Below are positions 2,639 through 42,466 of a stretch of 64,000 nt of DNA, piece by piece. How positions within the stretch are numbered: the stretch's first letter is position 1; the number at the start of each line of letters is the position of its first letter. Origin of the DNA: Siniperca chuatsi (taxonomy: Eukaryota; Chordata; Actinopteri; Centrarchiformes; Sinipercidae); contig NC_058063.1 of assembly GCF_020085105.1 (NCBI RefSeq), positions 6,544,501 to 6,608,500 on the forward strand. The letters are read 5' to 3'. Position numbers and translations under genes: made by a program. A model generated the notes under the pieces. The model was not told the DNA's origin, did no database searches, and saw only the letters and a program-made list of their open reading frames with translations.

Positions 2639-4237
2639 CTACTGCCTTACACTGGAGTACACACAGTCACTCATGGTGTTGTCTCTCGGTTTTCTTGATC
2701 TGTTGGACCTGTGATCCCTTAAAGCAGCATAATGGAGGTTGTCTGCATCTTGGTAACCCTGGCAAAAAGTATTTTAATGAATCATAATACAATACATGAA
2801 AGAAATAAACAAAACAACTAACTGCTGTAATGTTAAATGTGTCAGATTTTTCTTTTAAATAGATAATATTCACCTCTGTATTTGTTGTGGTAGAAGCTGA
2901 AACTCTCTGAGACGCTGTTGTGAAACACAGAAAAAGCTCTTTATTTTTAAAGCCATCTTCAGTGAATACAGTCAGTTAGATAAAAACTGTACTAGTTACC
3001 TGTACATTGGCAGATGTTTCTCTTGTTCATCATGCACACTGAGAAAGCCAGTAAAACGACCAGGATGGTGGTGAATACCAAAGCTCCGCTCAAGAAATTC
3101 ACAAGAGGGTCTGGAGAGTTCACCTCATCTGTAGATAAAAATACGTTTTAAAACCAAAAACTACGGAATACGTTTTATGATTGATTTTTTTCAAAGTCCA
3201 AAGTATCTATATCAGTATCAGCCTGAAAAAGCCAATATTGGTCGAGCTACACCTTTTGGCTGTTATCTCTGTATTTATGTAAAAATTGATTAGGCAGTAG
3301 TAAGAATTACTTCTCTGCTAGAATTTTACAGTACTTACCAGCAAAGTCCAGCTTGGTCCCGTTTCCAAACAGTATGTGTCCACATGCGGCAACAGCACAG
3401 TAGTAGGTCCCAGCATGAGAAAGATTCAGACTCTTCAGTGGCAAGTTGTAGACACAGGTGTTTGTTTGTGTGTTGGGTTTCCTCTCACACTGATCATTCC
3501 TGCCTCCATGGGTGTACATGAGTCCTGGATGAGATTCTTCAGAGTTTCTGAACCAGTAAACATTGTGTTCTCCATCACAGGTCCCAGTGTGTACTGTACA
3601 GTTCAGAGTCACAGAGCCTCCTGGCTGGATGGTCTCAGATGCTGACTGATGGACCGAAGCTTGGATGTTCAAACCTGAACCCTTTACACTGACAGTAATG
3701 CCCTCTGCAAACTCAAAAGTGTATGCATAGCAACTTATGCAGTAGTAAGTAGCTGAGTCTGAAATGTGCAAATCCGAGATTGTCAAGTGATTGTTCCCAT
3801 TGTTAGTCTCCAGTGTGAAACGTGGATTGTTCCTGAATTCATCAGTAAAAGTGCCAGCTTTATCATGTTTAAAGAAGGTAGAGATAAGCCTTGGTTTCTG
3901 TCCTAGAGTTTGCTTATACCAGTAGAACATAGCTGCAACCTTGTCACCATCATAGAAACATCGTAATGTCACGTTGTCTCCAACATTGGCTGATAAAAAA
4001 CCATTGTCTTGACGCACAGACAAGGACAATTTAGGATTAGTTGTCAGAGCTGATCAGAAAAGAGACATAGAAAGGTCGCGATCAATGTAATGATAGACGT
4101 TTCTCATAATAATTAGAAATTATACCAACAATGAATATTAATTTGTAAGGATGCAAATACATCCACAAAAGACCCAACTTACCTAATCTCCACAGGCAAA
4201 GACAAGTCAGATATGAAGCAAACTTCAGAGATGTCAT
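2639..4237 (-). CDS. nitr: Novel immune-type receptor, inhibitory type (NITR copy 1)
   Basis: Five coding exons: 4237-4183 (leader), 4049-3339 (V and I domains), 3128-3000 (transmembrane), 2914-2874 (linker), 2758-2639 (tail, TAG). All have GT/AG ends; phases 1,1,1,0 fit exactly, giving 351 residues. NITRs are teleost type I surface receptors of lymphoid and NK-like cells. The V domain runs from about residue 25 to 137 (CFYDGD, FYWYKQ, DSATYYC) and ends in FAEG where a J-like FGxG is expected. The I domain follows (LNC, VYWFRN, GTYYC) and ends in FGNGT. It has six cysteines, the usual I-domain number. The transmembrane segment has no charged residue, so adaptor pairing is unlikely. The tail has an ITIM, LHYAAL (Tyr about 322), and a second motif, CVYSSV (Tyr about 346). 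CDR3 has an extra cysteine (CISC). An in-frame upstream ATG exists at 4276, but the ATG at 4237 matches the paralogues. Family assignment is firm; ligand unknown. Confidence 0.93.
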
Positions 4238-4261
4238 AGTGATCAAAATGTCTTGAAGAAT

Positions 4262-4330
4262 ATAGAGAACCCCCATATGTTCTCTACTCTTAGAGAGAGG
4301 ACTCTGTCTGATTGGCTAACAAGAAGTGAC
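4262..4330 (-). promoter_or_regulatory. Proximal promoter of NITR copy 1, CCAAT box
   Basis: An inverted CCAAT (ATTGG at 4311-4315) sits about 75 bases upstream of the start codon, inside a block shared with the other copies: GTTCTCTACTCTTAGAGAGA, then GACTCTGT, then GATTGGCT. Conservation of the block and its spacing among paralogues supports a core promoter. No convincing TATA box. Confidence 0.5.
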
Positions 4331-4999
4331 ACTGAATGTCCTATTTTGGAAATAGTGAACACATGTTCATTTCCCCCTCCATTGTCAATTTTGGTTCTTG
4401 AGTCAAGACACGTGGAGAGATGCTACTAGAACCACAATATTACTCGTGAGCCTGATCATAAAATCACTAACAACAGGCATAACTTGGTAAAAAAAAAAGT
4501 TATCTAGTTATGCTCAACTAGAGTTATCTTCTGTCCACAGATCTCTCACTTTCATTAGTCGACATCAGAAGCAGAAACTGGGTCCAGTGGGTATTTAGAG
4601 TGGGCTTTGAGGACCGACCGCAAAGACAAAGACACAAGATGTATCAGACATTTCCTTTCAGATTAATGTAGAAAACTGAAAAGTAATGAATTAAAAGACT
4701 TAGGAGAAGTACTGAATTTCACGTATGATGCTGTATTAATGTAATTTGTTCTACTACACCAACCCAGATGAACACAACTTAACACTGCTTAGCTCAACAT
4801 GAGTGCAAACTTTAAGGAATTGAAACTTTAGGCAACTAAAACAACTTGGACAAGGGTAGGGTAAAGTGTTTGGTCAACATATTGTTTCAGTGTAAAACAC
4901 AGCCTGCTCCTTGCCCTGCCCCCAACAAATCACCTGTTCCACAAGGACAAACGTTTCTCACACTATATTCAAAAAAGCAAGTTGTTTGCATTTTAAAGT

Positions 5000-5130
5000 T
5001 ATCACATATTTCAGGCAAGAGGTCAATCTTCCTGCGTTCAAGCTCTGCTATGATGATGAAGTTTCCACTAATGGAAACACCACCTTCAGCACAGGAGTGA
5101 TAAAGGTGAATGCTGAAAGTTGTGCTAAAC
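5000..5130. repeat. Upstream block of the NITR unit, copy A
   Basis: TTCAAGCTCTGCTA, TTTCCACTAATGGAAAC, CACCACCTTCA and CACAGGAGTGA recur in the same order at 15826-15935. This copy is about 0.8 kb upstream of NITR 1; the other is about 1.4 kb upstream of NITR 3. Function unknown: it may be a distal control element or a remnant of the duplicated unit. Confidence 0.55.
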
Positions 5131-5769
5131 CCGAAAGATGCCACCAGCACAAATGTTCCTGAAAAGAGGGTATTATTTGATCTTGACCACCTGTCTCCTC
5201 TCCTGCTCTCTGCCTGTGTCATAGATGTATCTCTGGCGCTGGCAAAGCTCTAAAATGAAGTGTGGACATAGGTCTGGCTATGCGAGACTATGGTTGTATA
5301 AAGAGCTGCAGTGTATGTTTGACCGAGAGCGGAGCTGAGGTGCACACACGCAGAGAGCAGAGGCTGGGGACAGGACGAAGCGTGCGCTGTGGCTGAATTC
5401 ACACAAAATCCTGCAGTGTGGCTCCTTCCAGCAGCGTTGTGCGGAGATGTGGGCGATTTTATTTGTGCTTTAGAATGTAGCCACTGTGAAACAATCAGAA
5501 AACAACGTTTTATTTCTCTTACTCACTGCTTTGTTCTCCGTAATGCCGCTCCCTCTCTTTATTCATTCTCCAGTTCGCTCTCTCTCTCGCCCCTTGAGCT
5601 GGGGAGGAGGAGCCAACTTTGAATCGTGTGTTTACAATCAGCAACCGAAAAATCCTACTCATTCTGCCTTTAATGTTACAGAGTTGCAATGTGTAAATTA
5701 CTTGCTTTTTAATTTTATTACACCCTCTTTTAGCCTTTTGGCACTGATTTATTGGTATAATCTAGTAAA

Positions 5770-6250
5770 ATAGTCTGGGCATTACTGTGTGGCTGCTGCG
5801 CATGAAAACACTGCAGAGACTTCCTGTTTGAAACCACAAAGACAAAGAGAGCAGAGGGTCCTAGAAAAGTACATGACCAAAGTATATTGATTGATGATCT
5901 TTGACTGCTGACAACACAGAGGCTAAAAAGAGATCTTTACACCTCTGGGTTTGTGGTGTACAGTCAGCAATAAACATTATTGTGTCTAACAATAATCAAC
6001 CTGCAAAGACAATTTGGGAAAGACATTTATCAGTACACTTAAGGCGGACACCCACTATCTGACAGATTGGTTGCCTCCATGTTCAAAATGTGTATTCAGA
6101 AATGACGTGTTGTTTCTGAGAATGCAGCCGTATCTGGAAGGAGTCACATCCGTATCAATCATGCTTGATGTTTGCAGAGGCTAGCTGATAATGTCCCTCT
6201 TAAATTTCAGAATGTATAGTACATTAAAAGCACTTGAAATGTGAGCATGC
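5770..6250. repeat. 3' flank of the NITR tandem unit (copy behind gene 2)
   Basis: This stretch (for example CTGCAGAGACTTCCTGTTTG and CCTAGAAAAGTACATGACCA) closely matches 10910-11360 behind gene 3 and more weakly 2040-2215 behind gene 1. All three lie 3' of their NITR. The duplication that made the three genes therefore included their downstream flanks. Confidence 0.7.
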
Positions 6251-6988
6251 TAGCTACCTTACTGTTGCTGAGAGTTTTATTTGCTTTTGAAGTAACCACT
6301 AAGAAGGGCTCAATAACATAAAGTTTCACTTTCTGTTAAATTTGGCTTTGTCACATTCTCTTATGAACTTTCTCCTTCTCTCACTCATTTTTATGAATAA
6401 ATTTGCAATTTTGTTTCAACTAGGGAGCAAATGCTCAAGTGTTTTTCTTTTTTGTCTAGTGAAGAGCGAGAGAGAAATCACACTTGAACCAAAAAAACCC
6501 ATAATTTTTGAACAAGCATGTGAATGCACAATTGCATCTTGTAATGTGTTGCCCCATGACATCAGCCAATCTTCCTGTGTGCCCACTGTACCGATGTCAA
6601 TGTTTACATTATGACCAGGAAATGAGACATAACTACCACAAAGCGTCTCCCAGTCAGTAGTGCGAATTTTCCAGTGTGAACACTCTCTTACCTACCTGAG
6701 CCCACACGCACCACAGAGCTGAGTTGTGTGTGATTGTGTGTTTGTACACTGTAAGCTACAGTCATAGTGACAGTAAAATAACACCTTTGACAACAAAGGT
6801 CATACTTTATCAAGAAAGCATGGTGGCTGAAAGCACTTGTTTTATTAGTTTATTGCAGGGAAAGACTTAACATTCAGTATATTGAGGTGACAGCAATGTT
6901 CCTTTTCTAGAAAAAAAAATGCATGATATAGCTTTATAGACAAGTTCTTCTTACACAGAAACAAAGTACAAATGAAATGTTTCCAGCT

Positions 6989-9204
6989 CTATTGCCTTAC
7001 ACTGGAGTACACACATTCACTTTGTGTGTCACCCCTCTGTCTTGTTGATCTGTTGACCTTGTGTACGCTCAAAGCAGCGTAATGGAGGTTGTCTGAATCT
7101 TGGTAATCCTAGCAATAAAACACAATTTTAACATTTAATCACCATAGTAATACACATCACTTGTCTGATGCACATATATATTGAACACACCGACAGAAAC
7201 ACCTGTACAGTATAACACACATTGATATAACAGCGCTCCACCTAACAGCTACTGTATGCAGTATGTATTTAAGAGCGATTGTACTGAATTGCATTAATTT
7301 GCACAGGTGTTACTTTTTTCATCCCCTATACATTGTTGTTGTGCTGTATTATGTATTGTTATAGTGGTGCAATATTTCAAAAATACTCACCTCTGCATTC
7401 GGAGTCAAGGCAGCTGAAGATCTTGAGTCTGGTTAAACAAAAAAACAACAACAAAAGCTTTCAAAATTCACTAAGATGGTGGTGAGAGGACCAGTTCTTT
7501 TAACTTTTTGATTTTTCTATTCAACTACTACTCAAATATGGGCTGTGGCTTAGAGGTAGAGGTCGTCCACTGCGCCTTCGGTGTGTGAGTGTGTGTGTGA
7601 ATGATTAGTTTCTTTGTTGTGATGAGCAGTTGGCACCTGCCGTGAGTGTATGAATGGGGTGAATGGCATGTAGCGTAAAGCGCTTTGAGTGGTCGGAAGA
7701 CTGGAAAGACGCTATACAAGTGCAGTCCATTACCATTTACCATATGATGGAAAATGAAGCACAGCACAATAGCATAGCAACATAAATGAATCAATAAAGA
7801 CCCATACTAAAACCACTACAGCATACTACAACCACTACAGTTAAATGGTGTTGGTGTTACAGTATGTAACACCAACACCATTTAACAGTGGAAAGCCTCC
7901 ATCTATGTATGGCCTCTCTAGTTAATAATCGCGTTGACTGGCTCATTTTTCCAAATATTGATGACTGAAAATCATCACTGAAGGTGTAATTTTTGTTGCT
8001 GATGAGATTAGCAGCTAATAAACCATGGAATTAAGTAAATACAGTAGTCGTAAAAAAATGACAGTTAGCCTACCTGTACATCGGCAGCTGTTCCTTTTGT
8101 TCATTGTATATGCTGCATATGCCAGTACACCAACCAGGATGGTGGTGAATGCCAAAGCTCCAATCAAGAAATACACCAAGAGAAAAGAGTCATCTACAGA
8201 TCCAGACGTAGAAGGAGGAGACATTACAGAGCTGTAGTATAATGAGAAGGTAGTAATCATAACTACAGTATATATGAAACATCTGCTATAATGTTACTTA
8301 CACTCTAAGTCCAGCTTGGTCCCGTTTCCAAACAGTATGTGTCCACATGCAGCAACAGCACAGTAGTAGGTCCCAGCATGAGAAAGATTCAGACTTGTCA
8401 GTGGCAAGTTGTAGAAACAGGTGTGTGTTTGTGTGTTGGGTTTCCTCTCACACTGATCATTCTTGCCTCCATGGGTGTACATGAGTCCTGGATGAGATTC
8501 TTCAGAGTTTCTGAACCAGTAAACACTGTGTTCTCCATCACAGGTCCCAGTGTGTACTGTACAGTTCAGAGTCACAGAGCCTCCTGGCTGGATGGTCTCA
8601 GATGCTGACTGATGGACCAAAGCTTGGATGTTCAAACCTGAACCCTTTACACTGACAGTAGCACCCTCTGCAAACTCCAAATCATATTCATAAGAGCCTA
8701 CACAGTAGTAAGTAGCTGAGTCTGAAATGCGTAAATCAGCGATTGTCAAGTGATTTTTACCGTTTCCTGTGTCTAGTGTGAAACGAGGATTTTTCTTGAA
8801 TTCGTTATCAAGGGTGGCACTTTTTTTATGTTTATAGAAGGTTGAGATGAGCCTTGGTTTCTGTCCCAGAGTTTGCTTATACCAGTAAAACATCACTGCA
8901 TCACCTTCATAGAAACATCGCAAAGTTAGGCTTTCACCAACATTAGCTGAATAAAAACCACTCTCTTGACGCACGTAGATGGACAAGTTCAGTTCAGTCA
9001 TCTGAGCTGAAGAGAAAAGAGATCCAGAAAGAGCACATTTAATTCAATGATATAAGTTTATTGCTAGATTGCTATAGCCTGTATGCAAAATTTGGAACCA
9101 TAGTAACTATAGAAGTTGTTTACAAATACATTTACGAAAGACAACTTACCTATTCTTCCCAAGAACAGACAAGTCAGATACATAGCAAACTTAAGAGGTG
9201 TCAT
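6989..9204 (-). CDS. nitr: Novel immune-type receptor, inhibitory type (NITR copy 2)
   Basis: Coding exons 9204-9150, 9006-8302, 8193-8074, 7428-7391 and 7108-6989 give 345 residues with the same phases as the neighbouring copies. The leader begins MTPLKFAMYL; an in-frame ATG nine bases upstream (9213) is an alternative start. The V domain has LRCFYEGDA, FYWYKQ and DSATYYC, and ends in FAEG instead of FGxG. The I domain is nearly identical to that of copy 1 and keeps six cysteines and FGNGT. The transmembrane exon encodes an uncharged segment around FTTILVGVLAYAAY followed by NKR. The tail carries LHYAAL (Tyr about 316) and CVYSSV (Tyr about 340). AATAAA signals (TTTATT on the plus strand) lie about 140-150 bases past the stop near 6840-6853. 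Intron 3 holds a SINE and a perfect hairpin. Intact and likely functional as an inhibitory receptor. Confidence 0.93.
7540..7742 (+). mobile_element. SINE-like element in intron 3 of NITR 2
   Basis: The head GGCTGTGGCTTAGAGGTAGA resembles a tRNA-derived A-box. The body holds GTGTGTGAATGATTAGTT, and the tail AAAGCGCTTTGAGTGGTCG then CTATACAAGTGCAGTCCATT, all characteristic of a short element common in teleosts. It is inserted antisense to the NITR and far from its splice sites. Confidence 0.65.
7840..7886. repeat. Perfect 21-bp inverted repeat with 5-bp loop
   Basis: GTTAAATGGTGTTGGTGTTAC at 7840-7860 is followed by a 5-base spacer and its exact reverse complement at 7866-7886. It lies in intron 3 of NITR 2, about 100 bases 3' of the SINE. 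Confidence 0.9.
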
Positions 9205-9229
9205 CGTGTTCATTTTGCCATGTTGAATG

Positions 9230-9300
9230 AATTGAATCTCAATACGTTCTCCACTCTCAGAGAGAAGACTCTGTTTGATTGGCTGACGAGAAGTAGGACC
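9230..9300 (-). promoter_or_regulatory. Proximal promoter of NITR copy 2, CCAAT box
   Basis: Same cassette as copy 1: GTTCTCCACTCTCAGAGAGA followed by an inverted CCAAT (ATTGG at 9278-9282), about 75 bases upstream of the start codon. Confidence 0.5.
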
Positions 9301-9329
9301 TCATATCCTTATTTGGAAACAATGAACAC

Positions 9330-10900
9330 ATGTTCAGTGCTGCCTTGAATGCATAGAATGCATGCTTGACCTGCGAGCTCAAGCAGGTCTTTTGAGAGAC
9401 GTTACATTCTATTATCTGATTTCTTCTCTTTCATTCATTCGTGGACAATGGCAAGACTTATTATACGTTGTTAATGTTAAGCTAATGTTCTGTAAATGGT
9501 AAATTTGTGTTAAAAAGAACTCATTAGGGTACTTTCAGGTTATGCATGTAACATTTAAAGTATGCCCGTTGATGATGTCTTCAGTCTTATCGTTTAGAAA
9601 GAGTTTAAAAGCATGCACATTTGTGATTGCTATACAACCTCCTCACAAATCAGCTGTGGCTAATAAAGGAGTCAAATTCATACAAATTGCGGGCAACATA
9701 TCAACAGAAAGCTGGGGTGCCCACCCCTATCGTACACAGTCACTCCCGTGGGTCCTTCTTTGTTTCTAACAAACTGCTAACTTTGCAAACGTCAACACTG
9801 TCAGTAACGTTATACAATTAGCTACCTTTATAATCTATCACTAAATTCATCTGTTTACTCACCAGTGTTTCTCTAGAAGAAACATTGCATCAAACTTCAT
9901 CCCTTTACTTGTCAAGAGCTGTCTCCAGCGGTGGAAAGCAAGGCCAAGGTTAAATCTTGTTTTGCTTCTATTTCTATCACTTCGTTCTGTGCCGCCGAAC
10001 ATGGTTTCTTGCTCTTGGGGCAGCGCTACTTCTTCATCCCCTCATGTTGGACTGAGGGCCGAGTGGACGCTACAGTTACTCACTATCACCTCTCGAGGTA
10101 CAAAGTGGTATCATGAGACAGGACGGGCCGGGGCTAGTTGGTTAGCATGCTATCTTCAGTAGATATGCAACACAATACATAGACGAGACGTCTTTGACAC
10201 AACGTCAAAACTGTTGAAAAAATTGTATAATTTTTTGATAATTTTAGTTATTTTTTTTAATTTAAACTAAAATTCTTACATATACTACTTTTAAAGGAAC
10301 ATTTTGCTGACTTCTTGTCTATAATATCCATCCATTTTTGCGAGAGTTGTTGTCAGTGTCAGCACAGACAGACTGACATTGTATGGGACAACAGGGGGCT
10401 GGAACATTTGTTCAAAGATTAATCATAAGAAATAACCAATGCCAACAGGAAGAAGAGCTGTTGATGTTGCTGTAACCAAATATTATGTCTGTATTATGTC
10501 AGCAAATTTAATAATATATTTTTTGTTGTGGCTATTATTGGTACATGTGGCTATAATTGCTGGTAACAGTAGTTAGTTACATAGGGATGTTCACTGCCTC
10601 ACCGACTCCTTCCCAAGCACACATATCATGGCCGCTTGGTTAATATAACAGCCTGTGTTTTAAAAGACGGGCAGAAATACAAGGTTTCTGTGGGTGGACA
10701 TGATAAGATGCTCAGGCTTACACCAACATGAGCACATCAGTCCCCAAGCACCGCTGGTCATGAGGGTTTCTGGCAATGATTAGCTGTATTCCACTGCACT
10801 GATTTTGAGAAAAACATTGAAATAAATTAGTGCATATTCAGTTTCTAGTTATTATTTTTAGTTATTATTATTAGTTTGATTGCTAAAATAATTTCTTCTG
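9330..10900. other. Gene-free stretch between NITR 2 and the flank of NITR 3
   Basis: No open frame with recognisable similarity, no splice-consistent exon and no clear repeat ends. It separates the upstream side of gene 2 from the duplicated flank at 10910. Confidence 0.5.
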
Positions 10901-10909
10901 ATCTTAAAA

Positions 10910-11360
10910 CAGTCTGGGCATTAAAGGTATACCGTGTGTCTACTGTGCATGAAAACACTGCAGAGACTTCCTGTTTGAAACCATAAAGACAGAGGGAGCA
11001 GAGGGGCCTAGAAAAGTACATGACCAAAGTATATTGAGAGCTAATCTTTGACTGCCGACCACACAGAGGCTAAAAAAAGATCCTTACACCTCTGGGTTTG
11101 TGGTGCACAATCAGCTCATTTACAGGAAACAGACTGAAGAATAACAGGCATTATCAATACACTAGGGGTTGGCGCTCACTATGGGACAGATTGGTTTGTG
11201 CCGCATGCTACATTTATAAATCACATGTTGGCAGGTCTTGTTGTTACCCTGCTGTGAGAAGGTCGGCTCTGATGGTTCGGAGCACGCTACCATGCCTTGA
11301 AGGAGTCATGTGCATAGCAAACATGCTTGATGTTTGCAATGCCATACCGATTGTGTCCCG
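10910..11360. repeat. 3' flank of the NITR tandem unit (copy behind gene 3)
   Basis: Paralogue of 5770-6250, sharing GAAAACACTGCAGAGACTTC, CCTCTGGGTTTGTGGTG and ACATGCTTGATGTTTGCA at matching spacing. No coding potential seen. Confidence 0.7.
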
Positions 11361-11552
11361 CTGACTTTGAGCTAGTGTCGCTGTGAGTTTAAAGCGCTTT
11401 TGATTGACTAACCACAGACAAGAACCAAAATAATGTGTGTTGTGTGAAGGGAGAAACATTACACATGTACAGACTGTCAATGATGAAGGTATTACCGCTC
11501 ATGTCTTTAGCAGTGGGTAGTAGATTTGTTTTTATATTCATTTTCAAGGCAA

Positions 11553-11557
<5 letters not shown>

Positions 11558-11612
<55 letters not shown>
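11558..11612. repeat. (CT)n microsatellite
   Basis: Uninterrupted CT dinucleotide tract of about 55 bases, in the 3' flank of NITR 3. Confidence 0.98.
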
Positions 11613-11613
<1 letters not shown>

Positions 11614-11837
11614 AGTACCAGAGCCCACAATCACCACAGACATCAGTTATGTGTCGTTGTATGTTTGTACATTTGAGCATCGTGAGAGTGGAAATATGGC
11701 ACCTAGATCACATCAAAGAAACTTGGCTTAACTGTAGCTGAAGGAACATGTTTATTTGGTGCTTTGCAAGGTAAATCTTTACATTCAGTATATGGAGGTG
11801 AAATCGGAAAGAAGTGTCACAATGAAACATGTCAGTT

Positions 11838-14469
11838 CTACTGCTTTACACTGGAGTACACACATTCACTCCTGGTGTCATCTCTCTTTCTTGTGGATAT
11901 GATGGCCTTGTTTGTCCTTAAAGCAGCATAATGGAGGTTGTCTGCATCTTGGTACCCCTGGGAATAAAATATAAAAGAGTTAATTGCCATATTAGTATAT
12001 GTCTCATGATTGATATAGAAAAGTATTGAAAACAGCCTCACTAACATCTGTACAGTCTAATGCAAATCAAAGTCCTGCAAAAGTAACTTCCTTTGTGAAG
12101 CTAAACATGTAAATTTATGAATTTTTTTTGGAGACTATGTCAAAGAGGTGTTAACTCTGCTGTTGAGGTTTTTGTATTTCAAGCTGTGGACAAAATAACA
12201 GTAACACCAACAAAAATAGTGCAATCCAGAACAACTACAGCACCAACTTGTCTTCATCAACAGTCAATGACCATCGGCCACTGATTTACAATCTATAAGC
12301 GATCCTCACAAAGGTATGTGGTACTTATTGCAAGATATTAAGTATACAAATTGTACGGTTGTTGCTCTTTGCTCTTTTGTGTTCATCCTGATTCTCTGCT
12401 TTTTTGCTGTTAAATATATTACATTTATATTTGTGCAACATTTTGAAAATACTCACTTCGTCATTCGGACCTGAGGCAGCTGCGAATCTTGCTTGAGAGT
12501 CTGGTTGTGAAAAAAACAATAAAAGGCTTCTTCAAAATTCACTATGCTTGTGGTGAGAGGACCAATTATTTTGAGTCAGTTGGATAATTTAGACTAAAAG
12601 GTAATGAAACAGTTCTTCAGATTTTAGCATCTATCTTCTTCTGAAATGTGACACACGACAAGCCAGCATTGTAACATAAATTAATCAATGAAGACCAGCA
12701 CTAAACCTACTTCATAACACCAGCAAGTCATATATCAGTGTAAATATGAGGACTCCAACAATTTATACATACTTATATACTCCAACATACTGTTTTAATT
12801 TCTAAACTGTATGTAAAGAATATTCATTTTCTATGAATTTTTGACTAGAAATCTGTATCCATGATGCACATTTCAACACTGATGACGTTTTCAGCTGATG
12901 AAATGTAGAATAATAAATATATATTCCCATGGCCATGTGTCTTAACTGCTTGTTCTGCAATGTACAAATGAACATGTTAAAATCTAAATCCAGGCTGATT
13001 TACACATTATTTAGGTTGAGAATGTTGCTGTCATTACAATTTGCCTTGGTCAGTGAATTATCCATTCCTCTTGGATGGAGTGACAGAGTGAACCAGAACA
13101 AAAAATCTGTAACTAAGCAGTTTCACTTGATGTCTTCAAGTGTATCTAGATTTGCAAGTCACATGGTGGAACACGACTGTCCGAGAGTTACTCTTGTCCT
13201 AATTTGTTTGACTTAATGAATCGTATCAATTCATTTAGTTCTTTTCTGCTCTTCAATATCACGTACATTGAACACACGCTATCAAATTTAAAGGATCACA
13301 GTTTAGCCTACCTGTGCATTGGCAGCTCTTTGTCTTGTACATTGAATATGTCGTGTAAGCCAGGAAAGCAACCAGGATGGTGGTGAATGTCAAAGCTCCA
13401 CTCAAGAAATACACCAAGACAAGAGAGTCCCCCTTATCTGCAGACGAACATTAGGACACATTAAAGAGCTTTCACATTTTTTTCATCAACTTTGATTAGA
13501 AAGTATCCATCACTATTTAACAAATGAGATCATCTTTGCTAGAAAGTTACTTACGCTCAAAGTCCAGCTTGGTCCCGTTTCCAAACAGTATGTGTCCACA
13601 TGAGGCAACAGCACAGTAGTAGGTCCCAGCATGAGAAAGATTCAGACTCTTCAGTGGCAAGTTGTAGACACGGGTGTTTGTTTGTGTGTTGGGTTTCCTC
13701 TCACACTGATCATTCCTGTCTCCATGGCTGTAAATTAGTCCTAGATGAGATTCTTCAGAGTTTTTGAACCAGTAAACACTGTGTTCTCCATCACAGGTCT
13801 CAGTGTGTACTGTACAGTTCAGAGTCACAGAGCCTCCTGGCTGGATGGTCTCAGACGCTGACTGATGGACCAAAGCTTGGATGTTCAAACCTGAATCCTT
13901 TACATGGATAATAGTGCCCTCCACAAATTCATACACATATAAATAGGCACTGATGCAGTAGTAAGTAGCTGAGTCTGAAATTTGCACATGTGAGATCTTC
14001 AAGTTATATTTACCAGAGGTAATTTCAAGTTCAAAGCGTGGATCGGTCTTAAATTCACCATTCAACATGCCATTTTTGTCATGCCTATAGAATTTAGACA
14101 ACAGCTGTGGTTTCTGTCCCAGAGTGTGCTTATACCAGTAAAACATCACTGCAGCACTATGTTCATAGAAACATTCCAAAGTCACGTCTTCACCAACACT
14201 AACTGATACAAAATGTAAAGATGATGATGGTTTAAGAGCTGTCATATCAGCTGAGGAGAAAATGGAGACCAAGCAAATGCACAATTAACTTTCTACCATG
14301 ACTGGGAGCATATTGTAGAACACAAAATGTATTGCAGAACATATTAAAAATAGCAGAAGCAATGCTTTGAAGAAAAAAACGAGACAACATGCATGTACAA
14401 AAGTTACAACTTACCCGTTCTGCCCAAGATCAGACATGTCACATACAATGCGAACATTGGAGGTGTCAT
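11838..14469 (-). CDS. nitr: Novel immune-type receptor, inhibitory type (NITR copy 3)
   Basis: Coding exons 14469-14415, 14250-13555, 13437-13312, 12500-12457 and 11957-11838 join in frame to 346 residues. The leader starts MTPPMFALYVTCLILG. The V domain (LECFYEHSA, FYWYKH, DSATYYC) is the most diverged of copies 1-3 and ends FVEG where FGxG is expected. The I domain matches copies 1 and 2 closely and ends FGNGT. However, the cysteine in NTC.VYN is arginine (codon CGT for TGT), leaving five cysteines instead of six, so one is predicted to be unpaired. The transmembrane segment is uncharged. The tail has LHYAAL (Tyr about 317) and CVYSSV (Tyr about 341). A TTTATT (minus AATAAA) lies near 11752, about 85 bases past the stop. 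Intact reading frame; inhibitory type. Confidence 0.92.
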
Positions 14470-14494
14470 TTTGGTGAAAAAGCTGTGGTTAATT

Positions 14495-14570
14495 GAGAGG
14501 ATCTCTATACGTTCTCTACTTTTCAGAGACAAGACTGTGTTTGGTTGGCCAATCAGAAATGGCTCTGAAT
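14495..14570 (-). promoter_or_regulatory. Proximal promoter of NITR copy 3, CCAAT box
   Basis: Same cassette: GTTCTCTACTTTTCAGAGAC, then TTGGCCAATC, which offers CCAAT on both strands around 14545-14553. The proximal block is conserved, but the sequence further upstream differs from copies 1 and 2. Confidence 0.45.
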
Positions 14571-15825
14571 GATCACATGGTCAGTGCCATGTCAGGGCAT
14601 GTAATCAGGACCTACAGTATTTAGGAAATGTACAAACAAAATGCATGTTATATCTAGTTCAGTTTGTCTTCCAAAGTGATTGTGGTAGAATTGGCTGCAA
14701 TGAACATGAGAATACTACCGAATCAGCTGCTGTATACATAAAGGGGCCTTGTAACTGTTAGCAGTGTTAAATGCACAAAATGAGTGTCTTAAGATAACAC
14801 TATAAAACTGGTCGTGGCTGGAATGTGTTCTGAAGAGGAGGGACAAGACTCCACAGATACCCCTCCTCTTGACCTTGCTCCTATTACTGTTTGGTATATC
14901 TAGACCCGTTGTTTATTACTGACCTTAGGAGACACACATATTACACATGTGTTAACTCCCTATCACCAGGTTAATGAATACATGTAAGACAACATATACT
15001 GATCAGGGAGTGTTTTCATTCATCAATTAGAATCTGTGATGTTACAAAAAACACATTTTGGCAAAAACCTCAGGTCACAAACAATTTATCATTGACCTCT
15101 GACCTCCTCATAGTAGCATGTGTATAATATTCTCTTGTGTGTTTTAGCACTGGATTAGATGAAATATATGTAGTGCCTTACTAGAGTATTCCCCTTGACA
15201 TGATTCACCATTGACAATGCTTTTTATTCACTGACCTTTGCACATAGTTTCAGTTTCTGAAGTTAATTGTAGTGAAGGAAAATGTGTCTTTTTATACCAG
15301 TGGATGAATGTTTCAGTATGTTCTGTTCATTGTGACTTTATCAACCAGAAGAACCTCATATTGGATCTGAGTACAAGTTATGGACCTGCATGATACTGTA
15401 TGTCCTCTTCCTCAAAAAGTTGATGTAGCACAAACTGGACATGCCATTATGGTGAGTTTCCTATAAAGTAGAGCTTTGGGTCAATTTCGGCCATATGAGT
15501 TTTAGGGAACTGAAATTGTGAAACTTAAACCGTTACGGATGACTAAAATAACATTTTGATCGAAAGTTTTCCTCAGACCAGTCTTCCTATGAGCTAAGAA
15601 ATAAATCTGGACTGTTGGCGTTGTAGGTATGTAAAAGTCCTTTCACCTCACCTTAATGTGCATTGTCGTAATTCACACTTCATTTTGATGTCAATGCACT
15701 GCCTGCTTCTAGTTTTTCTTTTGTGCACAGCATGTTTTCTGCATCTAAGACATGATGCTTGTTTCACAAGTTCTGTGAGGTTCACCGAGATGCAAGACAC
15801 TGTGGCCTGGAAGCTACGGGCCGCT

Positions 15826-15935
15826 CTTCCTGTGTTCAAGCTCTGCTAGGAGTTATGTTTCCACTAATGGAAACTTATACTGTGTACACCACCTTCACCA
15901 CAGGAGTGAAAGGTAAACAGTGAGAGTCGGCTATA
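15826..15935. repeat. Upstream block of the NITR unit, copy B
   Basis: Paralogue of 5000-5130 (shared TTCAAGCTCTGCTA, GTTTCCACTAATGGAAAC, CACAGGAGTGA). It lies between NITR 4 and NITR 3. No open frame is conserved between the two copies. Confidence 0.55.
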
Positions 15936-16210
15936 GAGTGAAAGGTGCAACCCGTGCTTACGTTTCTGGCAAAAGAAGATATTAATAGATCGTAGGGGAT
16001 TTTCAAGAGCCTGCTTTGTCTATATCTGTGTGTAAGATGCTGATCCATGTGACCGTTGTACACTCTCAGAACATATTTTACATAAAAATACTGCAAACAC
16101 ATTGCACAAAAAATATTTTATTTTTTTATACTGTCACATGAAGTGTTGTTTTCTTGCAAGTGACTGACAGGAAAGAGAGATCATTTGGTGAAGTGGTTGA
16201 AGGTGAAGTC

Positions 16211-17745
16211 CTACTTCTCTCTTCTGCTCTTTACTCTAGAGTATACGCAAACACTCTCCACGTTGTCCTCTTGACGATGTCGTTCACTGGTTCTGTTCAG
16301 ACTCAGAGCAGCATAATGGAGAATGCCTGCATCTTGGCTCTAGTAATGACAAAATGACAATGGTACATTGTGTGAGAAATATAATACCAGAAGTACTATA
16401 TTAAAAGCTGTAAAATCTTATTTAGTGATTTAGTGAAGTATAAATATGGCTTCGATCATACAGTTATTTCACCTACCATGGCGTCAGAAGCTGCAGAACA
16501 TGTCAGATGAGAAGTAGTTCCTGCAAATCAAAATACACGAATGATCAAGAAAGGTCGCTACAGAAAACATTCAAATACCTTTATTCAGATAATCTTACCC
16601 TTGCAGAAAGAGCAGGAATTTTGTTTCAACTTGTACATGATGAAAGCCAAGACAAGGAGCACGATAATGGAAACTGCCAATGCCACAGAAAGGCAATACA
16701 CCAGGAGAGGGGATACTTTCGTAGAACGTCCTAACATGCAGTCAAGAGAAAACATATCGTACATCCGTTGTATATATTTATATTTATGGATATACAATAA
16801 ATGTGGTTAATTTCATTTTTAAGTAACTTAATTTTTAACTTCAAGATGGAAAAAACTATTCTATGCAATAGCAGCTCTTATCACCTACCTGCGATCTCCA
16901 CTCTCGTTCCATTTCCTAACACAATCTCCCCACAGGAGGCCAGAGCACAGTAGTACATCCCGGCATCAGAGGAGTTCACAGACTTAATAGTGAAGTTTGA
17001 AGTGCAATTCTTCATGTGAGACTCTTCATTGGAGAGGTTTTTACACTGTCCCGCACTGCGATACATGATCGCAGGCTGAGCCGCACCTTGTCTGAACCAG
17101 TAGAGGCTCTGCTCCCCTGCACATGGTTCAGCGTATACTGTACAGATTAAATTCACAGAGTCACCCAACCGAAGTGGCTCCAGTGCTGGCTGATGGACAA
17201 CAGCTTGGATGTTGGACAGTGATGTTTTGACGTGAAGGAAAGCTCCTTGTCCAAATTCAATTGCGTTGAATTCTAAAATCCCACAGTAATATGTTGCTGA
17301 ATCCGACAGTTGAAGGTTTGTGATTCTGAGATGGTTGATGTCTTCTTGACTTTTTGCTAAGACTTGAAATCTATCTTTATACTTGGGGGACATGGTAGTT
17401 TCCGTGCTGTGCTTCATCCGAGTGGATATGATGAGAGGTTTGCCTCCCAAGCTTTGCTGGTACCAAGAAAGGAAAGTTACAGCATCGTCTCGACAAAAGC
17501 ATTTCAAAGTCACAGTCTCCCCAACTTTAGCTATTATGAGCCCACTGTCCTGAGTTATACCTGAGGTCTTGTTAGCAGCTGGCACCTGACCTGCATAGAA
17601 ATGCACAAAATTATATTATTTATACTTTTAAAACCTAATCCCTCTCGCTCAAAATTATATTCATGCACATAGAAACAATAAAAAACAGTGTAAAATACTT
17701 ACAGATTTCACTGAGAAGCACAAGAAAAATGCAAAGTGGCATCAT
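16211..17745 (-). CDS. nitr: Novel immune-type receptor, inhibitory type, diverged (NITR copy 4)
   Basis: Coding exons 17745-17703, 17590-16889, 16730-16599, 16520-16477 and 16339-16211 give 349 residues with the same phases as copies 1-3 but much lower sequence identity, so this is an older lineage. The leader is short (MMPLCIFLVLLSEI). The V domain (LKCFCRDDAV, SWYQQS, DSATYYC) has an intact J-like FGQG, unlike its neighbours. The I domain (LICTVYAEPC, LYWFRQG, GMYYC) keeps six cysteines and ends LGNGT. The ectodomain has NKT, NLS, NCT, NFT and NSS sequons. The transmembrane segment is uncharged and followed by MYKLK. The tail holds ILHYAAL (ITIM, Tyr about 316) and CVYSRV, and ends in a basic KSRREK that the others lack. 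The first of two tandem ATGs (17745) is taken as the start. Plus-strand TTTATT near 16108-16117 may be the polyadenylation signal. Confidence 0.92.
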
Positions 17746-17789: not shown

Positions 17790-17840
17790 CCAACTCTTAT
17801 AGGAGACGAAGGCTGTTTGTGATTGGCTAAGCTGACTGGT
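17790..17840 (-). promoter_or_regulatory. Proximal promoter of NITR copy 4, CCAAT box
   Basis: GATTGGCTAA (ATTGG at 17822-17826) lies about 77 bases upstream of the start codon. Only the CCAAT core and its spacing, plus AGACGAAGGCTGTTTG, are shared with copies 1-3. Confidence 0.4.
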
Positions 17841-23610: not shown

Positions 23611-25930
23611 TGTCATAGTTAGCCTCTATGTCCTCCCTGATCCCTGTGTGCTCCAGTATGCTTTCCCCTCCTTGTGTTTCCTGGCTGTCCCCTGTTCGTT
23701 ACTGTGTGTGTATGTTCTTGTCTGGCTTCCTGATCTCCTGCCTGCTGCTGATCACCGGCACACCTGACATCAGCCAATCGGGTCCAACCTACTGTCTCCA
23801 CGGGTCCGCTGCCTGGTCGGTTTAGCTCAATCCACTACGCCCGCCAGTCCAGAACCTGCCTCCCTGGTCTCCATCCGGAATGTCGCCAATTCTTCCTCGA
23901 TCCAGACCGGTCGAGTCCTCGGGGGCGACAAAGAACTATGCCAGACTTCTGCACAGACATTAGCACCACTTCTAATAAAACCTGTTGCAAAAATGCCCAG
24001 CTCTGTTCTGTCGTGTTTTGCATTTTGGGTTCAGTGATCGTGCACTACGACAGAATGATCTGGCCAACATGGACCCAGCAGGCGCCAATCCAGAAGCAGC
24101 CCCATTTCGTCAGGCACTAACCAGCCAGGGGATTCTTCTGGGCCAACACGAGCAGATACTACGGGCTCTCTCCGACAGCAACCAAGCCATGGTCACCCAG
24201 ATCACACAGCTAACTCATCAAGTATCTAGACGCACAACTTGCACCATCCTCGCCAACTACCCCTGTTAGCCCGCCAGCGACACTACCACCTCTCCGGGAA
24301 TCCTACGCCTCCGACCTGTATCCTTTCACCGGAGATGTCACCAGATGTCGAGGTTTTCTTGCTGCAATGCTCCCTGGTCTTTTGCCAGCGCCCTGTCACC
24401 TTTGCTTCAGATCAGTCTAAGGTAAATTACATTGTGGGATTGTTAAGAGGGAGAGCATTAGCCTGGGCAGAAGCCACACATGCTAGCCAACCCCTATCGT
24501 CATTTTCCTTGGCCGAGTTTTTGGAAAAGATGAGGAAGGTGTTTGATCATCCAGATGCCAGTGGAAACGCTGGGAAGCGGCTTTTAAGGATCAGACAGGG
24601 AGACTGCAGTGTGGCAGATTATTCTGTGGAGTTTCACACCCTGGCGGCAGATTCGGGATGGAACGAGGAAGCACTAATCAGTGTGTTTGTGAAAGGACTG
24701 AGTGAAACCATGAAGGATGAACTGGCAGCCCGGGAGGAACCCACCAGTCTGGACGCATTGGTCTTGCTATGTCTGCAAATGGACAACCGCAAACGCGAGC
24801 GGCACCAGGAGCGCTCCAACTGTCCTCACACCCTTCCCTCACGCAACCCAGCTGCTACTACGCCCAAAACGGGATCAGTCAGCCTGACCGCAGCTCCAGA
24901 TCCGCAGACCCCAACCACCTCGGAGGGGGAACCCATGCAATTAGGCTGGACCCATCTGACGCCAGCCAAGCGTCTCCATAGACGTGCAGCGGGGGAGTGT
25001 ATGTACTGTGGTAACAAGGAATATTTTCTGGCTATGTGTTCCTTGAGACCAAAAGATTAGGTTCACCAGTCGCAGTGGGGGTTCTGGTAAGCCAAGACCA
25101 CCCCGTAACCAGGGCCCGCCTAGGCTAAAAATCCCGGCCACCCTCTATAATCAACGGAAGTCGTTCCCCTTGCAAACCCTCATCAACTCCGGAGCAGAGG
25201 GTAATTTCCTTGACACCGAGTTGGCTCAACAGACTCAAGGCCGACCAGAGACTCCACCTGTGCGCCTTCTTCTCCCGACGCCTCTCCCCGGCTTAATGAA
25301 AACTATGATGTTGGGAATAGAGAACTCCTAGCAGTCAAGTTAGCCTTGGAAGAATGGCGGCATTTGTTGGAGGGAGCTGAACAACCATTCATCACGTGGA
25401 CTGACCATAAAAATTTGGAATACATCCAAACGGCCCTGCGTTGGGCCCTGTTCTTTGGCCGTTTTATGTTCACTCTCACTTACCGTCCCAGATCCAAAAA
25501 CATCAAACCCCGACGCACTTTCCCGTCAGCATCATACCCTGGATAGCAACCCCGGACCCGAGACTGTCCTTCTGTCCACCTGCGTTGTGGCTACTGTCAC
25601 CTGGGAGATTGAGTCTGTATTTAGGGTGGCCCAGCGTGACCAGCCAGACCCTGGTAACGGGCCCCCTAATCGCCTATTTGTCCCTAACTCGGCTCGTTCC
25701 CAGGTGCTTCAGTGGGTGCACAACTCTCGCTTCGCCTGCCATCCTGGGGTGACCAGCACCCTCTCTTTGCTTACAAGACATTTTTGGTGGACCACCATGG
25801 GGGCAACAGAGAACTACGCCAGACTTCTGCACAGATATTAGCACCACTTCTAATAAAACCTGTTGCAAAGATACCTAGCTCTGTTCCGTTGGGTTTTGCA
25901 TTTTGGGTTCAGTGATCGTGCACTACAACA
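23611..25930 (+). mobile_element. Ty3/Gypsy-type LTR retrotransposon fossil
   Basis: The element starts TGTCATAG, ends ACTACAACA and is flanked by a 5-base target duplication, GTAAA (23606-23610 and 25931-25935). The left LTR is about 23611-24052. The last 132 bases of that repeat recur at the right end (25799-25930) with roughly 11 differences by eye, about 8%, so it is of moderate age. Parts in order: a Gag-like region with a CCHC-type zinc knuckle (24.1-25.1 kb), protease-like (near 25.15 kb), RNase H-like ([12 protein letters not shown], 25.3-25.5 kb) and an integrase zinc-finger-like stretch (25.6-25.8 kb). At 2.3 kb it is far shorter than a full element. It is clearly broken, with several breaks. 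Confidence 0.85.
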
Positions 25931-26498
25931 GTAAAATGTAGAAACTACTTTTTAAAAAGTAATGATATATATACTTCACTAAATCCAGAAAAAAAGGGTA
26001 GCCTGTATCAGTTTTTGAAATGTTATTTTTGCTGTTTTTTTGTGCAAATATACTTTTAACTTTGCAGCTAAACATATGCAGGATTAAAGATTACCAAATG
26101 TGTTAAAAACACAAAAGTTTATCTTAATAAACTTAATTATAATAATAATAATTGAAATTACAGGATTTATAAGGAGAGCAGCGGAGGTTGGAGGTGCCTT
26201 GCCTCTAGAGCTACGTACTGCAAATCATCAGATTCCTCATTCTGTAGGAAATAAAAAAGCTAAATTATTATCACCAGATGCTAAACTAATTTAGATATAA
26301 GATGTGTCTATGTTCAAAAAAAATGTTTTGCTTCCCTGACTGTCAGATGTGTATTCTTGGACACTCGTTCAATGTAACAGACACATGCAGAGCTGCAACC
26401 ATGCAATGCATCAAAACGGTAGAAATGTCATCCTGTTTCCCTGTACAAACATAAAAAGCAATGTAGACTAAACAAAAAAAAGCTCCAATTTAGATTAA

Positions 26499-27245
26499 TT
26501 AAAATATATGTTGCTCACCCCCAACATCCAGTCTTGTTCTTTTCCCAAACAGTATCCCTCCACATAAAGTCACAGTAGTGACAGTAGTACGTCCCAGCAT
26601 CAGACATCCGGACACACTCTCACACTGCTGCTGTGTGTGTGGATGTACATGATTCCCAAGTGGGAGTTTCTTGAATGACACTGCTGGGGTAAAGACCAGT
26701 GACTAGACTTTGAAAACAGACATTTAAGAAAGGGTCATGAAATGGAAAATCAAATGGATTTTTTTTTTTTTATCAAAATAGTTCAAAATCTAAAACTAAA
26801 GACAAACTATCTTTTAAAAAAATATTCCTTTATCAAATTCAGTGACTGTAATACTGTTTGTTTCTCCACAGTAGTACATAGCCAAATCCGAGTCATGGAC
26901 AATAGAAATGTTCAGATGGTAGAACCCTTCTCCAGTATGAATTGAAAATAGTTTGTTACCTTTAAACTGATAGGAAGCTGTTGGAGTCAGGTGAATGTTT
27001 GTAGAACAACCTGCTGGTACCAACACTAATATTTGGCACTGGAGGCATAGAAACATGGTAAAGTCAAATTGTGTCCTGGGTTAGTGTAGAGTAGTGCACA
27101 ATCTGAAACACAGAGAGATAAATGAATGACCATTGAATGCAAAAAATAAGTTTCTAAAATGTCCTCTGAAGAAAAATACTATATGCAGTGACTTACAGGC
27201 TCTGAAGAGAGGAACCAAGAGCACATAAAACGTGTCTCTTCCAGT
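26499..27245 (-). pseudogene. NITR pseudogene (leader, V-domain and end of I-domain remnants)
   Basis: On the minus strand a leader-like stretch (FYVLLVPLFRA) ends at a good donor at 27197 with the phase used by the intact NITRs. It appears to have lost its ATG. An acceptor near 27103 opens a V-type exon reading NPGHNLTLPCFYASSAKY, then an in-frame stop just before WYQQ, then a shift of frame to GFYHLNISIVHDSDLAMYYC and TEFDKG. About 150 bases further on, CGGILFGKRTRLDVG matches the end of the NITR I domain (CGHILFGNGTKLDF); most of the I domain between is missing or unreadable. I see no transmembrane or tail exon downstream. It shares orientation with the four intact genes, so it is probably a decayed outlying member of the cluster, cut off from it by about 9 kb of repeat-rich DNA. 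Confidence 0.8.
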
Positions 27246-30479: not shown

Positions 30480-32339
30480 TACTTATACGCCAATGAGGCC
30501 AATGCTGGGTTATGTGTCATATAGCATAACATAACTGAGACCTCATCAAAACTGCCCAAAACAGAGGAACAGGTAAGTCATATTTTTTTTTGCAAGAAGA
30601 TCTGCATGTTTGCATGATATAAGGGAGAGGCCATTCTTTTCATTTTTCACTTTCACACAGTTTCAATTTCAGAGTGAGTATCTTGCAATGAGACATTACA
30701 ACTTCAAAAATCAAATGAATGTGCACTGGAAGTGGGTAAAATGTTGTAACTCGATGATTTGTTCTTGTAGTAAAACAAAGATTTTAAGGGACCAGACTTG
30801 TTAAAGCTATACCTGCTATGTTTGTTTTTTGCTTTCACAGAGATTGCATTAGCAGCAGAGTAGGGCAAATGGCCGGGCGATGTGTCTAACTAATATATTT
30901 TATATATGATATTCAGGGCTGAATACATATCAGTGTTTTCAACATTACATGGTCAGATCTGACAGGCAACAGTTAAACTAGTGGCCTTGAAAATAATTTG
31001 TAGAATTGTAGAGAGGATGTGGGAAATGTGAAAGATAAGACTGCAAAAAAATATAGTGGCACCACAAACGCTGCAAACAGAATAATAAATTCCTCTTTCA
31101 GAACTTCTTTGAAACAGACAAAAATGCTGTTCTTCAACTTTAGGTTCACACATAACAAGTAAATTGGAGTTTTACAATAAAACACATTTTTTCTCAAAAT
31201 CTGCAAAAATGGATAGCTATTGGTCAGTGAAATTTGGTGTCCAATGAAGATAAATAGAGGATTAGACCTGGTGTCAAAGCAATGCGTTTAAAGTGTGAGC
31301 TAGTCTGTGTCCATCCTATATGTAACTTTATTAGTGTTGTCCAGCTGTCTTATAAGTTTCTTTTGGTGTGATAAACTTATCGATCTAATGTTATGTGACA
31401 GTGTGGGCGCAGTTTGTAGACTTTATATAGGTTCATGTTTCAGGCATCCCCCTGGAAATATTAAATTCAGCACCTATGGTGGAAAACGTTGATGGTCAAT
31501 AGATTGCAACTTCCTATAAATGCCCAGTCTACAATTTTTGCCATCTTTCCTCCACAAGTTGTAACTAATGGTGATTGAAATGATTAATTAATTAGTTATT
31601 AATGCCTTAAAGCCAAGAAATAATCCATTAATGAGATCAACATTTGGATTGGCAGGTTGTAAAATATCCACGACAACCCAAAAGTTGTTAAAATTAAATA
31701 CTTATTACTGATCAATAAAGCATTAATACATTGTTTATTCACCATCACTCACAGATTATAAACGTAAATGTATTAATTTTAAAAGTAGTACAAAATATTA
31801 AAATGAAACATGCACATCTAATTTGCATACAGAAGCCTGAGTCAGCTGTGAAACAACACACCCATGTTCTTCTCACCTCTGCTGTACTTCTTGTTCTGTT
31901 TTAGATATAAGCCTTGGTGTTTGTGATGCATGTGAAAATGTATTCTAGCCTAAAAAACAGATTTTTCACAATTAGGATAACCACAAATTGTGAATTTTAG
32001 AGGACATATATGTTATGTCCTGAACAACTTTAACTGTTTTTGCAGTGAATTATTTATGAATTGTTATAGAACTAACTAAATATCTCAATAACCATATATC
32101 ATTATTGAAGAAGAAAACAAAAGCAAGCTCCTATGGCTAAAACTTCCCGTATAACCCGTGGAGTCCTGACACCATATATACACATTATAACAACAGACAT
32201 TTTAGAAAAAACCTTACCACATTCTTACTTTTTTTTTTCAATTTTAAAATGGTCTTTCTTTTCCAAACAGATTCTGTCATTTGACATTGTAAATTGCTTG
32301 ATTGCATCACAGTTTTACATGTTCTAATCTCTTTTGTAG
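30480..32339 (+). other. Upstream region of the PTGDR2-like gene
   Basis: A possible non-coding first exon ends at 30572 with the donor AACAG|GTAAGT. The coding exon opens at 32340 after TCTTTTGTAG. The two could form a 5' UTR intron of about 1.8 kb, but no transcript evidence is available. No other gene is seen between 28.3 and 32.3 kb apart from the decayed segment at 29.4-29.65 kb. Confidence 0.3.
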
Positions 32340-32409
32340 ATCTCAGCAGTGTGAAGCAAAAGTTAAAGGACATCAGCTTAGTACAACATCAAGACATTTT
32401 TTCTCCAAG

Positions 32410-36066: not shown

Positions 36067-36442
36067 GTCTCTACTGGTCAAGCACCTGACATGGGAAACT
36101 AGAGGTGACCTTACTCAGACATACTTGCAGGATGATGAGTTGGTATAGAAATACCCATTCATTCACAGCAAGAGCAAGCAAAAGAAAAGTCTCTGTTGTT
36201 ATCAGTTTGATGCATCCACTTGTCATTTGTCCATTGTGTAATATTCATAAATGCATTCTCCTGTGGAAAAGGTCAGGCTCAGATTTCGTGCTGTCAGTCA
36301 ACCAGTCTTCAAAGCATCCAGGATCCATCGGGGGAAACAAACACCTGCAAAGAAGATAGCAAGAACATTCTCAGATGATTTAGTATAAGCAGGTGCATGA
36401 GCAATTAAACCATATAATTCAAACCAAGATTTTTCACTCACC

Positions 36443-41989: not shown

Positions 41990-42025
41990 GATTTTTGCAA
42001 TGTTTTACAAAACATTGCAAAAATC
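41990..42025. repeat. Perfect 17-bp inverted repeat with 2-bp loop inside the LINE
   Basis: GATTTTTGCAATGTTTT, then AC, then its exact reverse complement AAAACATTGCAAAAATC. It sits exactly at the junction where the sequence between the YADD motif and the C-terminal block is missing. Confidence 0.9.
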
Positions 42026-42396: not shown

Positions 42397-42466
42397 GGCG
42401 ACACCACATGTGGAGGGCTGTCTCAGTGCTGCAGCACTGAGACAGCCCTCCACATGTGGTGTCGCC
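42397..42466. repeat. Perfect 70-bp palindrome inside the LINE
   Basis: A 35-base arm (42397-42431, starting GGCGACACCACATG) is followed with no spacer by its exact reverse complement (42432-42466, ending CATGTGGTGTCGCC); the centre is CTGCAG. One arm encodes the expected LINE residues ([10 protein letters not shown] region); the other is an inverted extra copy. Confidence 0.95.

Follow-up and report, generated by a model that had tools for sequence, protein, structure and literature searches.

Inhibitory NITR genes at one end of a mixed cluster in Siniperca chuatsi, with an I domain probably homogenised by gene conversion

The window analysed here is a stretch of 64,000 nucleotides from the fish Siniperca chuatsi (C22:6544501-6608500; RefSeq assembly GCF_020085105.1, contig NC_058063.1), and its left part carries four genes of the NITR family, G1 to G4, each with a V and an I immunoglobulin (Ig) domain encoded in a single exon. 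The array itself is what a fish NITR cluster is expected to be. The part worth following is a homogenisation limited to one domain, in which the I half of this exon is nearly identical between genes that differ widely in the V half, probably as a result of gene conversion.

Four NITR genes and the cluster they belong to

Models of G1 to G4 in which each splice site was assigned in the sequence divide every gene into five exons: a leader, the V-I exon (exon 2), a transmembrane (TM) exon, a short cytoplasmic exon (C1), and a last exon (C2) with the immunoreceptor tyrosine-based inhibitory motif (ITIM). All four lie head-to-tail on the minus strand and together span positions 2639-17745, from the G1 stop to the G4 ATG (Table 1). 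Exon entry phases are 0, 1, 1, 1, 0 in every gene, GT-AG borders are found at 16 of 16 introns, and the single stop in each frame is the final codon, with none internal. The initial annotation had claimed four complete five-exon genes in this order, with matching phases and no stops, and that observation is confirmed: the four genes are real. Two details of the models were also noted. An in-frame ATG lies upstream in G1 at 4276, 13 codons before the likely start, and exon 3 of G2 has an alternative in-frame acceptor (exon start ~8231), use of which would lengthen the stalk.

Pfam recognises both Ig domains, with V-set matches in all four proteins at E values of 1.9e-25 to 2.4e-29. The I domain contains six cysteines in G1, G2, and G4 and five in G3; six is the hallmark of the family (PMC2442602, which, like the other articles cited here, is drawn on in part). 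J-like motifs are present in the I domain (FGNGTKL in G1-G3, LGNGTRV in G4) and in the V domain, where G4 has FGQG and G1, G2, and G3 have the degenerate forms FAEG, FAEG, and FVEG. The sequence LHYAAL, a canonical ITIM ([SIVL]xYxx[IVL]), occurs in all four tails, and the best 19-residue hydrophobic segment of each protein is free of D, E, K, and R, so the intact ITIMs and uncharged membrane segments first reported for these genes are borne out. The C-terminal motif reported alongside them is also present throughout (CVYSSV in three genes, CVYSRV in one), but it is ITIM-like rather than a canonical ITIM because of the cysteine at position -2. These tail motifs are not chance matches, since LHYAAL and CVYS are invariant even though the tail exon of G4 has only 44-49% of its residues in common with G1-G3.

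Exon plan, six-cysteine I domain, J-like motifs, and tail thus support the NITR identity and inhibitory architecture first proposed. A point on the other side is that no named NITR was among the best 60 Protein Data Bank matches per search, which listed antibody-type or T-cell receptor-type V domains. Judged from their sequence, G1-G4 belong to the single-exon V-I class known from pufferfish and from medaka chromosomes 18 and 21 (PMC2442602) and are unremarkable inhibitory NITRs encoded in the germline. By the medaka rule that more than 70% V identity defines a family, G1 and G2 are borderline (84/120), and G3 and G4 form separate families. In such receptors the V domain would meet the ligand, and the tyrosine of the LHYAAL ITIM would be phosphorylated and recruit an SHP-type phosphatase to damp the lymphocyte.

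The four genes are the right end of an NITR cluster that extends over ~6.449-6.572 Mb of C22. The flanks of the window (6374501-6544500 and 6608501-6638500) were scanned in six frames with profiles from G1-G4, and genome-wide searches were made in which the best 150 of 1541 and the best 150 of 331 candidates were scored, a depth that does not show absence elsewhere. The cluster contains 15 open single-exon V-I exons (G1-G4 and 11 others), 3 two-exon genes, and 7 broken or fragmentary copies. The eleven further open V-I genes have membrane-exon and tail-exon matches downstream, full models being limited to G1-G4. A canonical ITIM is found in 14 of the 15 open single-exon genes, among them N8 (6506114), in which the frame shifts after the ITIM. 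The exception is N2 (6474302), with DYYIAL in place of LHYAAL and an arginine at the inner edge of the membrane segment. At C22:6473683-6475042 and in its relatives (membrane exons 6476351 and 6521072), the membrane segment reads FWHGAFAFTTILSVLLAFLVRMMNKRN, with the inner-edge arginine, and the tail has DYYIAL for LHYAAL.

Of the two-exon genes, two end in tails with ITIMs (VVYAAV/VVYSDV and VIYAAV/VVYSDI, read by eye without full models). The third, at C22:6449330-6450724 on the plus strand, has three exons, for the leader, the V domain, and the I domain, the last of which continues through the membrane segment to the stop. Its membrane segment has an arginine in the middle, it lacks an ITIM, and its end reads LIWLAIVRTGLLLSFITICLLFYNNKCW and then stop, with splice phases fitted by hand. 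It lies on the strand opposite to the window array, its stop 96 kb to the left of G1, and it is putatively an activating-type gene, NITR9-like in plan. The neighbouring sequence had been proposed as the place to look for a member with a charged membrane segment, and this gene has such a segment. In the parts of the literature drawn on, most NITRs are inhibitory, in medaka as in zebrafish (PMC2442602, PMC3463160), and nitr9 is the sole predicted activating NITR among 39 in zebrafish (PMC3463160).

These genes bear directly on the view of the initial annotation, in which G1-G4 made up a self-contained array of inhibitory and apparently functional NITRs only. That view holds for G1-G4 themselves in frame, splice sites, and tail, and within the window all four are of the inhibitory type. 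It does not hold for the cluster, which continues to the left with the 11 open single-exon V-I exons and the 3 two-exon genes, one of them with a mid-membrane arginine and no ITIM, and which also includes the noncanonical N2 tail; moreover, the window itself holds a dead NITR, and G3 has lost a conserved cysteine. As a description of the cluster, an inhibitory-only array is refuted by the activating-type gene on the left, and we consider the self-contained array highly improbable. The all-inhibitory appearance of the array is due to the position of the window's edge, and the four genes sit at the end of what is predicted to be a mixed inhibitory and activating cluster.

The lost cysteine also raises the question of whether inhibitory function has been lost in one or more of the four genes, foremost G3. 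G3 alone among the 15 open single-exon genes compared has an arginine for the fourth I-domain cysteine, which the other 14 keep, and the cysteine of its QC motif would lose its likely partner if the presumed pairing is right. Its frame, splice sites, and tail are intact, however, and medaka NITR22 and NITR23 are each likewise one I-domain cysteine short (PMC2442602). A loss of function is therefore unlikely in our judgement, although it deserves to be kept in view.

Divergence within the V-I exon and probable gene conversion

The two halves of exon 2 have very different degrees of similarity among G1, G2, and G3. In the I-half tract, the three pairs are identical at 343, 334, and 330 of 351 bases, as against 274/348, 242/339, and 232/336 in the V part and 87/187, 95/200, and 167/226 at the start of intron 2. 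Synonymous divergence (dS) among these genes is 0.44-0.66 in the V half versus 0.03-0.05 in the I half. A breakpoint scan places the change at codon columns 135-141 in all three pairs, within 9 codons of the domain boundary at column 144, and in each pair none of 5000 shuffles was as extreme, whether all changes or synonymous changes were scored.

The same asymmetry runs through the 14 homogenised open genes of the cluster, a set of 91 pairs that are not independent and from which G4 is left out as not homogenised; broken genes were considered separately and do not enter the dS values. In every one of the 91 pairs dS is higher in V than in I (medians 0.418 versus 0.044), and at pooled 4-fold degenerate sites 644/2941 differ in V and 111/4649 in I. 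In 80 of the 91 pairs no shuffle of 500 reached the observed break score, and 74 breaks fall 8 codons or less from the boundary. Strong purifying selection on the I domain could keep the I halves alike without any conversion, and the I-domain protein is indeed conserved, with its family-defining cysteines (PMC2442602). Selection on the protein is nevertheless insufficient because the synonymous and 4-fold sites are flat as well. The ratio of nonsynonymous to synonymous divergence in the I half of G1-G3 is 1.1-1.6, on few changes, and the I half differs from that of G4 at 121/293 pooled 4-fold sites. Genes with a broken V part also retain the common I half: median identity to the 14 genes is 97.7, 96.5, and 98.2% for the I halves of N3, N6, and N9 and 79.9, 72.5, and 80.8% for their V parts. 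Taken with these results, purifying selection in place of conversion is very unlikely.

On the other side of the I half the genes are diverged again. In eight genes that we chose as divergent, identity climbs within ~40 bases of the V/I boundary and drops at the end of the exon, and the TM and tail exons of these genes have median dS values of 0.25 and 0.43 (28 pairs; N8, with its shifted tail frame, is left out of the tail set). This pattern bears on another explanation, in which duplication was very recent and the V halves of the copies were then exchanged for segments from diverse donors. Such replacement would likewise yield one sharp break in exon 2, but introns 1 and 2 and the TM and tail exons are diverged too, so that each gene would need replacement of all its parts but the I half. 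We give this explanation hardly any credence.

A second NITR cluster, found on C8 at 9.02-9.14 Mb by the genome-wide protein search (the best 150 of 331 candidates being scored), shows a similar imbalance. It was sampled as 12 stretches, nine of which enter the dS sets. All 16 pairs have a higher dS in V than in I, with medians of 0.192 and 0.027, respectively, among the five minus-strand genes and 0.401 and 0.056 among the four plus-strand genes; one pair combines a V dS of 0.566 with an I dS of 0.000. A charged residue in the middle of the membrane core was seen in none of the 9 of 12 stretches with a membrane-like segment (L029 and L032-L039, read by eye; a stop cuts L035), and no membrane-like segment was seen in L030, L031, or L040, the 12 stretches covering the cluster in part. 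From medaka, the expectation would be two clusters, one in which single-exon genes predominate and one in which V and I lie in separate exons (PMC2442602). Conserved synteny with MAP4K2, MEN1, and RTN3 would be a further mark of NITR loci.

We therefore consider it very probable that these are inhibitory single-exon V-I NITRs at one end of a mixed cluster, with the I half of exon 2 homogenised by domain-limited gene conversion. In this process the V domains would diverge, and the I half of the same exon would be kept near-identical among G1-G3 and the eleven further genes by repeated ectopic conversion, which would stop near the V/I boundary and near the 3' end of the exon. Within the tract, the sites at which G2 differs and those at which G3 differs are not intermixed (20 of 20,000 label shuffles; 125 of 20,000 without four edge sites), which makes more than one conversion event likely.

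Several observations weigh against conversion or restrict its reach. Comparisons of G4 with each of G1-G3 give no synonymous break (1510, 4354, and 765 of 5000 shuffles) and, for all substitutions, a weak one (20, 97, and 48 of 5000; maximum chi-square 7-8, versus 49-67 among G1-G3). Some shuffle reached the observed score in 11 of the 91 pairs, and in 17 of the 91 the break is displaced from the boundary by more than 8 codons. In the C8 cluster, 3 of 10 minus-strand pairs are alike in both halves, with V dS of 0.028-0.043. V and I distances still correlate somewhat in Mantel tests (r 0.40, 269 of 5000 permutations, for 14 genes; r 0.61, 183 of 5000, for eight genes), so the halves are not fully uncoupled. 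GC content at third codon positions is higher in I than in V in 14 of 14 genes, a bias that conversion can produce, but it was rejected as a sign of conversion because the same rise is found in G4, whose I half is not homogenised. The Mantel tests and the failures of the four-gamete test (62/120 site pairs in I, 1031/2556 in V) are alike weak or unspecific.

A wider form of the conversion hypothesis would make the I domain a module common to the genes, with ongoing domain-limited conversion maintaining near-identity within each of the two clusters, broken genes included and the activating gene partly so, and with the V domain left free to diverge. In the activating-type gene, 92 of the first 98 aligned bases of the I domain match G1 (by eye) before similarity declines, for 219/299 overall. 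In genes with a broken V part, the common I half may have been acquired by conversion before the break. We lean modestly towards this wider form. If it is true, the boundary within a single exon would mean that selection bars conversion from V but permits or favours it in I, as it might if the I domain met a common partner.

Promoters and other content of the window

Each of the four genes has a CCAAT box, inverted in G3, at a similar distance from its start codon (Table 1). Leader exons, found by motif, were located for nine of the 14 homogenised genes, G1-G3 included, and nine of nine, as well as G4, have a CCAAT box in either orientation 69-84 nt before the start codon; over the whole window such boxes average 0.08 per 50 bases. 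The activating-type gene has one at about the same distance (by eye). The placement fits expression of the genes but does not show it.

Table 1. Positions of the NITR genes, homogenised tracts, CCAAT boxes, and broken copies (window coordinates unless marked C22).
Feature	Position	Strand	Details
G1	4237-2639	-	351 aa; exons 4237-4183, 4049-3339, 3128-3000, 2914-2874, 2758-2639
G2	9213-6989	-	348 aa; exons 9213-9150, 9006-8302, 8193-8074, 7428-7391, 7108-6989
G3	14469-11838	-	346 aa; exons 14469-14415, 14250-13555, 13437-13312, 12500-12457, 11957-11838
G4, divergent NITR	17745-16211	-	349 aa; exons 17745-17703, 17590-16889, 16730-16599, 16520-16477, 16339-16211
Homogenised tract, I half of exon 2, G1	3345..3695	-	from base identities among G1-G3
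Corresponding tract, G2	8308..8658	-	approximate ends
Corresponding tract, G3	13561..13897	-	approximate ends
CCAAT box	4311..4315	-	78 nt upstream of G1 ATG
CCAAT box	9278..9282	-	69 nt upstream of G2 ATG
Inverted CCAAT box (ATTGG)	14549..14553	-	84 nt upstream of G3 ATG
CCAAT box	17822..17826	-	81 nt upstream of G4 ATG
Decayed NITR	26170..27127	-	V pieces 27127-26999 and 26981-26868; I pieces 26655-26514; tail piece with LQYVAL in 26259-26170
Broken or fragmentary NITR copies	C22: 6471574, 6476607, 6492611, 6513687, 6515750-6516155, 6521327, 6571317		6515750-6516155 is a V fragment distinct from N9; last is the decayed NITR of the window

The dead NITR of the window, which the initial annotation missed, is at ~27.13-26.17 kb and has stops and frame shifts and the same orientation as G1-G4 (best E 2.6e-8; a reversed-sequence control for the fragment search gave best E values of 0.18 and 0.92). 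Apart from this gene, the search for NITR fragments returned only weak matches in positions 18001-64000 (E 0.13-0.91) and in positions 1-2600 (best E 0.024, with stops). Scans of the window for Rfam families and tRNAs found nothing.

Further to the right are an open reading frame on the plus strand for a prostaglandin D2 receptor 2-like (PTGDR2-like) G protein-coupled receptor (32302-33528; Protein Data Bank match E 2.1e-108), a GPR4-like receptor of the same superfamily on the minus strand (34613-36114) in two open pieces ~420 bases apart, separated by an intron or an insertion, and a 548-residue open frame similar to UDP-glucuronosyltransferase (39477-41120, minus strand; Pfam E 1.4e-154). 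Retroelement sequence is represented by Ty3-type pieces at 24230-25838 (plus strand; gag and an integrase zinc-binding match) and reverse transcriptase pieces at 41980-42699 (minus strand). Outside the window, directly to the left of the NITR cluster at C22:6374503-6446560, lies a series of short exons that each encode a lone V domain from another Ig family (e.g. SVSESQTVEVQPGEDVTLLCS).

Significance and comparison with known systems

The cluster offers a test case for the evolution of paired receptors, in which the membrane-proximal domain, and not the ligand-binding one, is homogenised, with a median V-half dS of about 0.4. Similarity between I domains in this cluster is not readable as recent duplication, and trees built from V and I combined could mislead. 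With an activating-type gene in the same cluster, the balance between inhibitory and activating members can be asked of the whole locus. No account of gene conversion acting on the NITR I domain was seen in the literature searched, which does not include the sea-bass cluster paper (Ferraresso 2009, cited in PMC2837037), the first pufferfish paper, or Cannon 2008, and the result is no proof of novelty.

The closest relatives in organisation are the NITRs of pufferfish and of medaka chromosomes 18 and 21 (PMC2442602). As described in the part of that article drawn on, they are alike in the single V-I exon, the exon order leader, V-I, TM, C1, and C2, the six-cysteine I domain, the J-like motif, the tail with an ITIM and an ITIM-like motif, and the tandem arrangement, in which pseudogenes occur and activating members are few. 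The difference is that here the I domain is almost identical at synonymous sites across much of the cluster. The activating-type gene resembles NITR9 of zebrafish and medaka (PMC2442602, PMC3463160) in its separate V and I exons, mid-membrane arginine, and missing ITIM, and also in sharing a cluster with single-exon genes, a likeness judged by plan. It differs from NITR9 in that I domain, membrane segment, and short tail are in one exon, and pairing with Dap12 is putative.

Two systems outside the NITR family, again as far as the cited portions describe them, provide parallels for the conversion itself. The clustered protocadherins of fugu (PMC1852091) are tandem genes with an exon whose 5' part is diverged and whose 3' part is homogenised by regional conversion. 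They are adhesion proteins with six cadherin domains, and third-position GC content, uninformative here, supported conversion there. The paired CEACAM receptors of Xenopus (PMC5112662) are alike in that conversion is confined to one Ig-domain exon in a set of inhibitory and activating receptors; there, however, it is the ligand-binding N domain that is homogenised, whereas in the S. chuatsi cluster it is the membrane-proximal I domain, and the V domain is spared.

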